Translations under genes and position numbers: made by a program
Notes under the pieces: generated by a model
The model's database searches: none
Told to the model about the DNA's origin: nothing
What the model saw: only the letters and a program-made list of their open reading frames with translations
Origin: Strix aluco
Lineage: Eukaryota; Chordata; Aves; Strigiformes; Strigidae
Length of the DNA: 64,000 bases
NCBI RefSeq assembly: GCF_031877795.1
Contig: NC_133970.1
Location: forward strand, 44,322,033-44,386,032
Direction of reading: 5' to 3'
Part shown: piece by piece, positions 1-30,472 of the stretch
Numbering within the stretch: position 1 is the stretch's first letter
Layout: each line of letters opens with the position of its first letter

Positions 1-909
1 CTCTCAGGCCCTGTTTTTGGGGAGTTACAAGTCATCTCTCACAGACCGGGATTATCTAATCTTCATCAGTTTCAGTTTTCTGATGCTGTGCTGCCAGAAA
101 AAATGTTAGTGTGTAGAATCATAGAGGTGTTTGTCCTCGGTAGTGCCTTTACGGCTCTCCTGAAAGGAGCACAGATGAAAAAATTGGACTACTGAGAGAA
201 GCTAGGACAAATAATGATGCCACTGTTGCCTGATCACAGTTATTATTTTCACTGCGTGCTGAAAAGAAGGTGAGATCTTCAGGGTATTTTATTCAACTGG
301 AAAAGGAAAGACTTATACATTCCAGGTATGTTTGATTAGTTAGCTATCAAGTATTATTTACAGATAATGTCCAATTCATTAAAAAAATATAAATCTTTAC
401 TTAGGAAAATAGTTAAACACATGCTTATCTTGAATATTATTAATTACAGTTTTGGACCATGGCCAAAATAGGTCTCTCAAATAAGTATACAGTCTGCTTG
501 AATGGAGAACAGCCTACTATATATATATATAAATAATCTGGTAATTGTTTGCAGGATACATTAGGCTTACTTTCTACTAAGTTGCATATTTTCCTTTTTG
601 AGGAGTCTTTTTTTTTATTGGAGTTTTGCATTTACATATTATGTTCCGAAGACTGTGAGATGGGGGAGATTGACTGAAATTTCTATGAATTCCTAATGTT
701 TCAGGTATGGTTGAAAAAATTAAATTGAATCTTTGACTTGACATCTCTGTTCTTGAGAGGTCATTGTATTAGGACATCTGTACATAGGAGACATTTTTTG
801 TAGAACATCTCAAATGGAAGTGGAGATTAAAAAAAAAAAGTTAATTTTAATTCATCTACCCTTTCATCTGTACAAAGCAATTTATTAATGCCTGGTTTGT
901 TTTCTTCAG

Positions 910-977
910 ATTGCTACAATTTCTCCAGGGATGGCATCATGTGAAAACACTCTAAATACATTGAGATACGCAAATAG
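910..977 (+). CDS. KIF2A: KIF2A exon: end of motor domain
   Basis: 68-nt exon between acceptor ttcttcag and donor gtatgg. It encodes [22 protein letters not shown] plus two bases of an Arg codon, the conserved last helix of the kinesin-13 motor domain. Because it ends in phase 2 it can join either to the alternative exon at 2783 or directly to the exon at 4017, both of which start by completing an Arg codon. Confidence 0.95.
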
Positions 978-3900
978 GTATGGAAAATGTTATTGCTTAT
1001 AGCTATACTGGCTGTTGCTCACTGATGCATGGAATACTGTTGTTCCATGATGTGTAATTATTTTAACTACTTGAATAATTTTAGCATACTTGCATTTCTT
1101 AATAAGATTAAAACCAAAATACTGACTACTGATTCAGGCTCACATTTAATTTAATTTGTCACTTCTTACAACCATTACAAGAGAATCAATAGAAACTGCA
1201 TTTAAGCCATTATCCAGAGATGGATATAGTGTGGATTGCAAGGAATCTGGGAGATGCCCTTATTAGTTTTGCCCCTTCTCTGGAGGCATCACCTCTTGTA
1301 TTAGGGGTAGTCGGTTTTCATGATGATTCCCTGGGGTGTTAGCTGAAATACCTTTCTGCAATGTGATTTTTCATCCCCTTGGTGGAATTGCATTCAGTTG
1401 CCAGCCTGTTTCTTTTATATATATCATATCATATCATATCATATCATATATAGATCTATCTCAACTAGTTTATTTTTATGAAAATTCTGCAGTTGCTGTG
1501 GCCCAAATTTTATACTTCCCAACTTCAGGCAAATATCTGAGACCCCTAACTAAAGAGTCAGTTAATCCAACAGTGACGTTATAATCAGTGTAGAGGAATT
1601 AGTGCCTCCAGAGGCTAATGCAGCACCTCTGAGACCTGTACTGCTCTCTGAAAGTGTTCATCTCTTCGGTGAGTGTGAAAGGAGCCTACCCCAGCTGCAG
1701 TTCTCCTTAGTTTAAGGTCTGTGGAGATGGGGTCCTGCATGTGCCTGCAGTCAGACCTGTGACCCAGACATCCACCCCTGCTTTGCTGCAAAGAACAAAG
1801 GACGCAAACAAGCTTCTGGGCCATCAGAAAGCCTGGTTTTGCCAGAAGAGGCTACCATCTAGTGGCCTGCTTGCCCCAGTGAAAGATAGGGCAGAACCAC
1901 ATCTGCTCCTGGCTTGGCTGGGCACACCCCTGCCAGTCGTTAATTGGGCACAAAAGGCTGCTTGGGAAGCTTACGCCCGCTCCTCTCTGTATCCAAATGT
2001 CTTTGTGTTTGGATCAAGGGAGTTAGTAGCAAATCTGCCTGGCTTGGACCACTCTGTGCAATTTCCTTCCTGGTGAGAAGGGGGCATCTACTCCCCTGCT
2101 TACAGTAACATAACGACTGCACATTCATCAAGATTTGTTGGATCTTTCTATCCCTTATAGAATACGCATTGCTGATGTGACTCCAGAAAAAGACACTGCA
2201 AAACAAATTAAATACCTATTTCTAGCATACTAAATTGTTGTGCTGAAACTGTTTCTTCCCCTTGGTGTTAAATTTGTATGTTGTTATGGAGTAGATGCTT
2301 ATCACTGTAAAGTTGCTTCATGTGTTTTGTGTAGTATTTTAATTTTTTCTAGCAATATATCATTTTCATAGTACAATTAGTTTTTAGATGCTGAACACCA
2401 GTGTCTGCACAGTGTAAGACAGGGGGCAGTATAGAATTTAAAGTATTGTGGTGGTGTGATATATTAAAAGGAGCAGTTTAATGTAATATTAAATGTAGAG
2501 CAAATTTTGTTAACTGCACAAACTGAAATCTGGAATTACTCTTCTGAAAAAATTGCTATTATAGTCTCCTGCAAATTAGCAGAACTGGTTTTGTTCAGTT
2601 TTGTTAGTGATCTGTAACTATTTGCAGAAAGTTTAAATATGTCAAAACTCTTACTTGTGTTATAATATAAAAATAATTTTGTTGTTAAGCTATTAAAGAA
2701 CAATGCTAAACAAAGAGTTGTCATTTTAACTGTGTTTATGAGAACATTTTTTTTTAATTTGCTGCTGTATTTTGCTGCGCAGAGTAAAGGAATTTGGAAT
2801 TAGTCCTTTGGACATTCCCTTCTCACAGGGTAGTGGCAGTCGCTCTGATGTGTCTCCTTCCTATGAGTATGACGACTTTTCTCTTTCAGTCACCAGGTCT
2901 ACTTCATTCTATATATTTATTTTTAAGTTTTCTTTTTGGCAATGTAATTTTACAGACCAACCTTTCATTAGTCCCCTTGCCTTGAGTCACACATTGCTTT
3001 TATTTTGTTTGGCAGGTGATGGTTCTGCATGATCTGCAACCATCTTCCCACTATTTTGTTCACCCTCTAAACATCCACACTCTGTATCCAGGCTTGCTAC
3101 CTTTCTTCATACATTTAAAAAAAAATATTGGTGAAGTCGCCTTTGTACATTTAGTGGACCAAATCTGACAAGTCTGTGTTTAGGGTAATTTGAATATGTC
3201 TAATTAAAAAAGAAAAACATTTTAATACGTATATATTTTTAAAACTTTTCATCACTCCAAAGATGAATGAAATACAGTTTCTGTTGTAGTAAATATGTGC
3301 TACTTGAAAAAAAAGAATTTCCCCTTAAAAAAATGAAAAATTTGTTCTAAAACTTGCTATACATGCAGACTTCGATGTGTCTGTTTCATAAACGTTCTTT
3401 TAAATGGGCTTTCTTTGGACAGAATCATTATCAATTTTTAAACTATTTTCATGCTGCAAGAGCCTAACATTTTAATAAGATATTTTCACCTTTGAAATTA
3501 TTTTAATTAAAGGATCTATTCATTCTCTGGGATACTTGGTTGCAAATGATTTTCTTCAGAATGCTTTGTGGATTTGCTTATAACAGCTAGTGGGGTACTG
3601 ATTGACTAATTTTTTTAAAGCACAATTGTGTGCACAGAAAAAGAAAGATGGTCAGGTTTAGGGTGCTGAATGAACTTTTCTTTCAAATATTATTCATTGT
3701 TAAGGAGTTAATATTGAGGGTTTGAAGATTTTTGTCCTCTTAACAGTTAATGAGTAGTAAGATTTCAATCAAAAAATGCCCCTTGCTAGAAGATGGACTG
3801 TAATCCATCTGCAAGTAGTTGAAATTCAATGGTCTATGCTTTTTAGGAGTTGGACTAACATCTTTTTGTCATTGAAAGTACATTAAATTTGTGAGGCTGA

Positions 3901-29949: not shown

Positions 29950-30011
29950 GTTCCCTGGACTCTCTTCTGAAGTTCACCAACAAATCAAGGGTCAATTTCA
30001 CAAGCAATAAC
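29950..30011 (-). pseudogene. DIMT1: DIMT1 pseudo-exon (VIACEIDP)
   Basis: 62 nt after acceptor tttcag. It encodes VIACEIDP, then TGA, then FVGELQKRVQG. The following donor reads ATAAGT instead of GTAAGT. It is duplicated at 39839-39900. Confidence 0.88.
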
Positions 30012-30385
30012 CTGAAAACAAAGTATATATTTGTAACTTTATATAACTCCTACTAACTGGAATTAAAATCCAAATTGTAAAAAAACCTGTAACTATTGCT
30101 AAATTATTAAATAATTCTTAAATATTTCCTATTATGCTATGTACCTTTCCCTACCATCACCACCACCAAATGTGCAAGACATCGCATAAATGGATAACAG
30201 CAATGTAGTTTGATAAAACTATACAAAATTTACACGAGCAGATAAAAACTCATTGAAATTATGCAAATATCATTCATAGAGTAATTCTACTTATTTGAAT
30301 CAGATAGCTGAAGATCCTTCTGTTTGCCATAGTCTAAGCCACAATGTAGTTTGAGCTTGGTTGGGGGGGGGGGATTCACACTTAC

Positions 30386-30472
30386 TTTTTAAACTTTCTT
30401 TAACATCTTTACTGTCAGGTTACCAGTTCCTGGGCCTACTTCCAAAATGACATCTGTACATTGCAAGGCAGC
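30386..30472 (-). pseudogene. DIMT1: DIMT1 pseudo-exon with SAM-binding motif I
   Basis: 87 nt between an intact acceptor (ttcttag) and donor (gtaagtg). It encodes DVILEVGPGTGNLTVKMLKK followed by an in-frame TAA one codon before the exon end, where Lys is expected. It is duplicated at 40275-40361. Confidence 0.9.

Follow-up and report, generated by a model that had tools for sequence, protein, structure and literature searches.

The stretch of Strix aluco DNA analysed here (64,000 nucleotides, referred to as the window) lies at 44,322,033-44,386,032 of contig C40 in an assembly of 1.41 Gb and 202 contigs. It contains the 3' end of the kinesin gene KIF2A and, beside it, the remains of DIMT1. 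The window very probably belongs to the W chromosome, with its KIF2A copy (KIF2A-W) kept by selection, most likely for dosage, and its DIMT1 copy (DIMT1-W) lost because the loss was tolerated. The two genes also adjoin each other on a second contig, C41, where both are open.

Two copies of the KIF2A-DIMT1 pair

We infer that C41 is the Z chromosome and C40 the W, because of the order and size of the contigs and the linkage of KIF2A in other birds. Sizes were checked for 22 of the 202 contigs. They drop from 173 Mb (C1) to 0.86 Mb (C39) among the 16 looked at in that range, C40 and C41 measure 49.3 Mb and 97.0 Mb, and the four contigs looked at after C41 are tens of kb each. The order and sizes match an assembly laid out as 1-39 (autosomes), W, Z and unplaced contigs. 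According to the available passages of PMC4133349, KIF2A is a Z-linked gene in chicken and has been mapped to both the Z and the W of ostrich.

When the KIF2A protein was searched against its own genome, 13 matches were found, six on C40, six on C41 and one, a weaker paralog, on C21. The second KIF2A lies at 11.80-11.81 Mb of C41. For comparison, 100 kb of C41 and 100 kb of C40 upstream of the window were used. In the C41 region, KIF2A has the same 21 exons and adjoins an open DIMT1; this is the second pair that an earlier reading of the sequence alone had proposed to look for. The two contigs are collinear, introns included, in a chain of 38 alignments across 69 kb of Z, and the neutral Z-W divergence along this chain is ~15%. 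In the 10 kb past the window end, alignments to Z reappear beyond DIMT1.

The possibility was considered that C40 is not W but autosomal, or an uncollapsed duplicate of the Z region, since the comparison of the two contigs covers this one region. However, a neutral divergence of ~15% rules out an uncollapsed haplotype, and a haplotype duplicate was rejected on that ground. Moreover, the size order is interrupted by C40 and C41 at exactly the positions that W and Z occupy in a bird assembly, and the retroelement pieces and the decay of one gene fit W, leaving this alternative very little probability. The W-linked gametolog suggested by the sequence-only reading is supported by the collinear pair, the contig layout and the linkage of KIF2A in other birds. 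Its expectation that DIMT1 is intact elsewhere, most likely on Z, agrees with the open 12-exon copy on C41.

Structure and constraint of KIF2A-W

KIF2A runs from start to stop on both contigs, and 21 of 21 exons were matched between Z and W. Exon lengths are equal in all 20 exons that were fully read. In each copy, all 20 acceptors are AG and all 19 visible donors are GT. A short exonic stretch consists of N in both copies and was handled as missing data throughout the counts. As far as the gene was read, KIF2A-W has no stop in 719 compared codons and no frameshift, and its introns, common to the Z copy, rule out a retrocopy. The protein keeps GQTGSGKT, SSRSH, DLAGNE and the KVD motif, which we take to be the P-loop, switch I, switch II and the KVD motif of kinesin-13, respectively. 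By its sequence, KIF2A-W is therefore predicted to be a kinesin-13 motor.

The six exons within the window, all on the plus strand, are the 3' end of this 21-coding-exon gene and join to give 218 amino acids and a stop. Coding exon 16 (910-977, starting IATISPGM) is in phase between AG and GT and has the length of the Z exon. Exon 17, the 38-codon cassette (2783-2896), has 114 nt between AG and GT, as does the 114-nt Z exon. Exons 18 (4017-4167), 19 (6175-6276) and 20 (9617-9752) and the last exon, 21, with its stop (17164-17249), were likewise placed by splice sites, phase and comparison with Z. The intact phase and splice sites that the sequence-only reading gave for the six exons, cassette included, were all found, the splice sites being AG/GT. 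An unnamed repeat of ~0.85 kb also occurs here in two copies, 76% alike, at 7171-8010 in the intron between exons 19 and 20 and at 18423-19264 after KIF2A-W.

A neutral simulation on the intron spectrum was run for three cases of the W share, of which 0.25 was the mildest. When the W share was set to 0.38, the simulation predicted 5.0 stops, 10.0 frameshifts and 76 amino-acid changes; KIF2A-W shows 0 stops, 0 frameshifts and 37-41 amino-acid changes. The chance that KIF2A-W would carry neither a stop nor a frameshift under neutrality is ~4e-7 in this case. As a control in place, DIMT1-W was changed on the W lineage in 25 of 235 codons, KIF2A-W in 37 of 719 (Fisher p 0.0055, or 0.0006 when the 4 stops of DIMT1-W are counted). 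None of the expected disabling changes is seen, and W changes are fewer per codon than in DIMT1-W; KIF2A-W thus appears to experience purifying selection, although relaxed relative to Z.

The Z and W proteins differ at 51 amino acids. When the changes in the 719 codons were polarised, 37 fell to the W lineage and 10 to Z, with 4 unresolved; P152S (human S, Z P, W S) is scored as a Z change in these counts. In the motor, 13 changes belong to the W lineage and 1 to Z. KIF2A-W has RKRPFK where the Z copy and five aligned kinesin-13 chains have RKRPLN, which may alter function. L233F and N234K fall at sites alike in all five chains, and R344Q at one alike in all aligned chains except an engineered fusion, while E299Q and K352Q give the residues of KIF2C. 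Seven W-lineage changes are clustered at human positions 592-602, encoded at 4017-4167. The substitutions at usually fixed sites noted by the sequence-only reading are borne out in part. Of the 37 W-lineage changes, 16 fall in the exons that the window covers; the clearest change at a fixed site, RPLN to RPFK, lies upstream of the window on C40.

Several points weigh against selection as the explanation. W-lineage changes in KIF2A are ~3.7 times those on Z (37 vs. 10) and some fall at sites shared by the aligned kinesin-13 chains, which could mean slow decay. The polarity rests on human as the single, distant outgroup and is less secure outside the motor, and the W share of 0.38 was derived from a male bias of 1.93 in flycatcher. 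If the W share is set to 0.25, the expectation falls to 3.3 stops and 50 amino-acid changes, with a 4% chance of no stop; 6.6 frameshifts are still expected, and KIF2A-W has none. Furthermore, the pairwise ratios of nonsynonymous to synonymous divergence (dN/dS) are similar, 0.27 for KIF2A and 0.30 for the dead DIMT1. Taken alone, this ratio gives retention no support; it was dropped as a discriminator between the two genes, and the polarised counts and disabling changes were used instead.

KIF2A-W might accordingly be on its way out as well, mostly free of constraint and with no disabling change yet. The excess of W-lineage protein change would be explained, as would the radical motor changes G206E, N234K, R402W and R445M, the replacement of RPLN by RPFK, and a calculated dN/dS of roughly 0.5 on the W branch at a W share of 0.38. 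However, full neutrality would have given ~5 stops and ~10 frameshifts where none is seen, the adjoining DIMT1-W shows the effect of neglect since recombination stopped, and the P-loop and both switch motifs are intact. Ongoing loss is considered unlikely, if still the most serious competitor of selection. A smaller chance is given to the idea that KIF2A-W is turning into a motor specific to females, in which RPLN to RPFK, R344Q, R402W and R445M in the motor and the seven-change cluster at 592-602 would alter the motor or its regulation rather than mark decay. Females would then have a distinct kinesin-13, for example in the spindles of oocytes or in neurons.

Gene conversion from Z, rather than selection alone, could also keep KIF2A-W intact, and Z-W conversion is reported for some duck gametologs in the accessible part of PMC4278454. 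Among identical Z-W tracts wholly outside KIF2A exons, the longest is 62 bp, and another tract, mostly in the intron after exon 19, is 75 bp; both exceed 58 bp, the 95% point under uniform divergence. However, tracts of up to 72 bp arose in 200 runs simulated with uniform divergence, and divergence is in fact made uneven by constraint. Ten of the 12 longest identical tracts touch conserved exons, no clear conversion tract and no plateau of low divergence over KIF2A were found, and the 51 amino-acid differences between the copies remain. Conversion as the main cause of KIF2A-W integrity was rejected on the identical-tract analysis and seems a very poor candidate.

The DIMT1-W pseudogene and its surroundings

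DIMT1-W occupies ~23,915-30,490 of the minus strand and comprises exons 3-12; neither the window nor the 10 kb after it yielded exons 1-2. The sequence-only reading had correctly recognised a broken DIMT1, but its range of 25,313-30,472 was too narrow and left out exons 11 and 12. The Z copy has 12 exons, 307 open codons and GT-AG at 11 of 11 introns. Both genes align exon by exon to their C41 copies, so the resemblance is not due to chance, and a processed retrocopy of DIMT1 is ruled out by exons separated by introns collinear with Z.

The many disabling changes claimed for DIMT1 were borne out. In-frame stops occur at codons 73, 83, 217 and 283 (Z numbering), and there is a +1 frameshift in exon 6 and a -2 frameshift in exon 11. 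The lost splice sites are two donors, those of exons 4 and 11 (the latter deleted), and three acceptors, those of exons 5, 6 and 11; in addition, insertions split exons 5 and 7. Of 239 codons compared, the W lineage accounts for 25 changes and Z for none; a further 4 are W stops, and 3 changes could not be polarised. With several independent disabling changes and an intact homolog on Z, DIMT1-W is classed, on its sequence, as a putative unitary pseudogene of the W.

The exons were located as follows, with ranges that include up to 15 flanking bases and all on the minus strand. Exon 12 (23915-23989) was placed by alignment to the Z exon. Exon 11 (24710-24838) has lost its acceptor AG, and has a 2-bp deletion, a TGA stop and a deleted donor. 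By comparison with Z, exon 10 (25297-25391) is open, exon 9 (25698-25788) has a TAG stop, and exon 8 lies at 26469-26590. The 3' part of exon 7 (26675-26785) holds 98 of 124 bases, and its 5' part is at ~27,768-27,800. Exon 6 (28636-28716) has lost its acceptor (GG) and carries a 1-bp insertion. Comparison with Z placed the 3' part of exon 5, 62 of 94 bases, at 28772-28847; the 5' part, in which the acceptor AG is changed to GG, is at 29817-29863. Exons 3 and 4 are each present twice, copy 1 being placed by its 9,889-bp offset from copy 2. Copy 1 of exon 4 (29936-30026) has a TGA stop and a donor changed from GT to AT, with copy 2 at 39825-39915; copy 1 of exon 3 (30379-30486) has a TAA stop, with copy 2 at 40268-40375.

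The CR1 and retroviral pieces described for the window are present. Exon 7 is split by a CR1-like insertion at 26786-27767, a 982-base stretch found only on W in the Z-W chain and 94.6% identical to 11557-12538, a stretch overlapping a reverse-transcriptase frame. The insertion splitting exon 5 (28848-29816, 969 bases) is likewise W-only, and part of it is 84% identical to another place in the compared stretch of Z. There is also a head-to-tail duplication of a ~9.9-kb unit at 28946-48750 (28946-38860 and 38859-48750). The unit carries DIMT1-W exons 3-4, with the second copy near 39,825-40,379, and retroviral pieces. Its two copies are 99.66% identical, with 7 mismatches, 3 gap openings and 27 gap bases, so the duplication is either very young or an assembly duplicate. 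A long simple array of six-base GAAAAA units lies at 29010-29180, barely inside the boundary of the duplication. Farther along, 54596-63619 contains fragmented retroviral sequence (reverse transcriptase with thumb, protease and dUTPase), presumably class II-like, and a CR1-type endonuclease piece on the minus strand.

Retention, loss and comparison with other avian W genes

The preferred explanation is that selection kept KIF2A-W while the loss of DIMT1-W was tolerated. A stop of Z-W recombination in the region would have left both genes on W without crossing over. The loss of DIMT1-W would then have been tolerated because one Z copy suffices in females, and stops, frameshifts, splice losses and insertions would have gathered in it, its first exons going in a block that now holds retroelements and the tandem duplication. 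KIF2A-W, presumably expressed, would have stayed open in its 21 exons, as far as they were read, through the removal of disabling changes by selection. Females may need two doses of this microtubule-depolymerising motor, and such a need is the most likely reason for its retention. According to the accessible part of a study of 27 birds (PMC7599627), the genes that persist on avian W chromosomes tend towards dosage sensitivity.

No earlier report of a kept KIF2A-W beside a dead DIMT1-W, or of a dead DIMT1-W at all, was found in literature searches. On KIF2AW, PMC4468903 was the only paper found that deals with birds. A search for DIMT1 and the W chromosome returned only a chicken review; it mentions the gene once, as DIMT1L among RNA-seq candidate genes, in a passage that says nothing of a W copy. 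The main text of the flycatcher W paper does not contain DIMT1 (PMC4468903). The pair is nevertheless what known W evolution would lead one to expect, an ordinary if clean case of a W losing most genes and keeping a few. For research into W decay it provides a matched pair: ~7 kb separates the retained gene from the decayed one, both lie in the same collinear block, and the Z counterpart is complete.

The avian W is described as a refuge for retroviruses (PMC8310711), and CR1 and retroviral pieces surround the genes here too, although at one locus only. In the accessible text on the collared flycatcher W (PMC4468903), the pseudogenes IFNB, FCHO2, SMC2, NTRK2 and HOMER1 have stops or frameshifts and a Z copy, like DIMT1-W. 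DIMT1-W goes beyond these as a further gene, with its first exons missing, two exons split and a recent partial tandem duplication.

KIF2A-W itself has a counterpart in the collared flycatcher, where the same text lists KIF2AW, a W gametolog of KIF2A as here, as protein-coding on the W with survivors such as ZSWIM6W. The flycatcher gene tree puts KIF2A in an old stratum, against its position. Here, synonymous divergence (dS) is 0.12 and intron divergence 0.15, both below the mean of the young flycatcher stratum given there (PMC4468903). KIF2A divergence in Strix aluco is moderate and the same as that of its flanks; therefore, if rates are comparable, birds in general probably do not share an ancient stratum for KIF2A. 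This bears on a point that the available part of PMC4468903 leaves open, namely KIF2A as an oddly "old" flycatcher gametolog.
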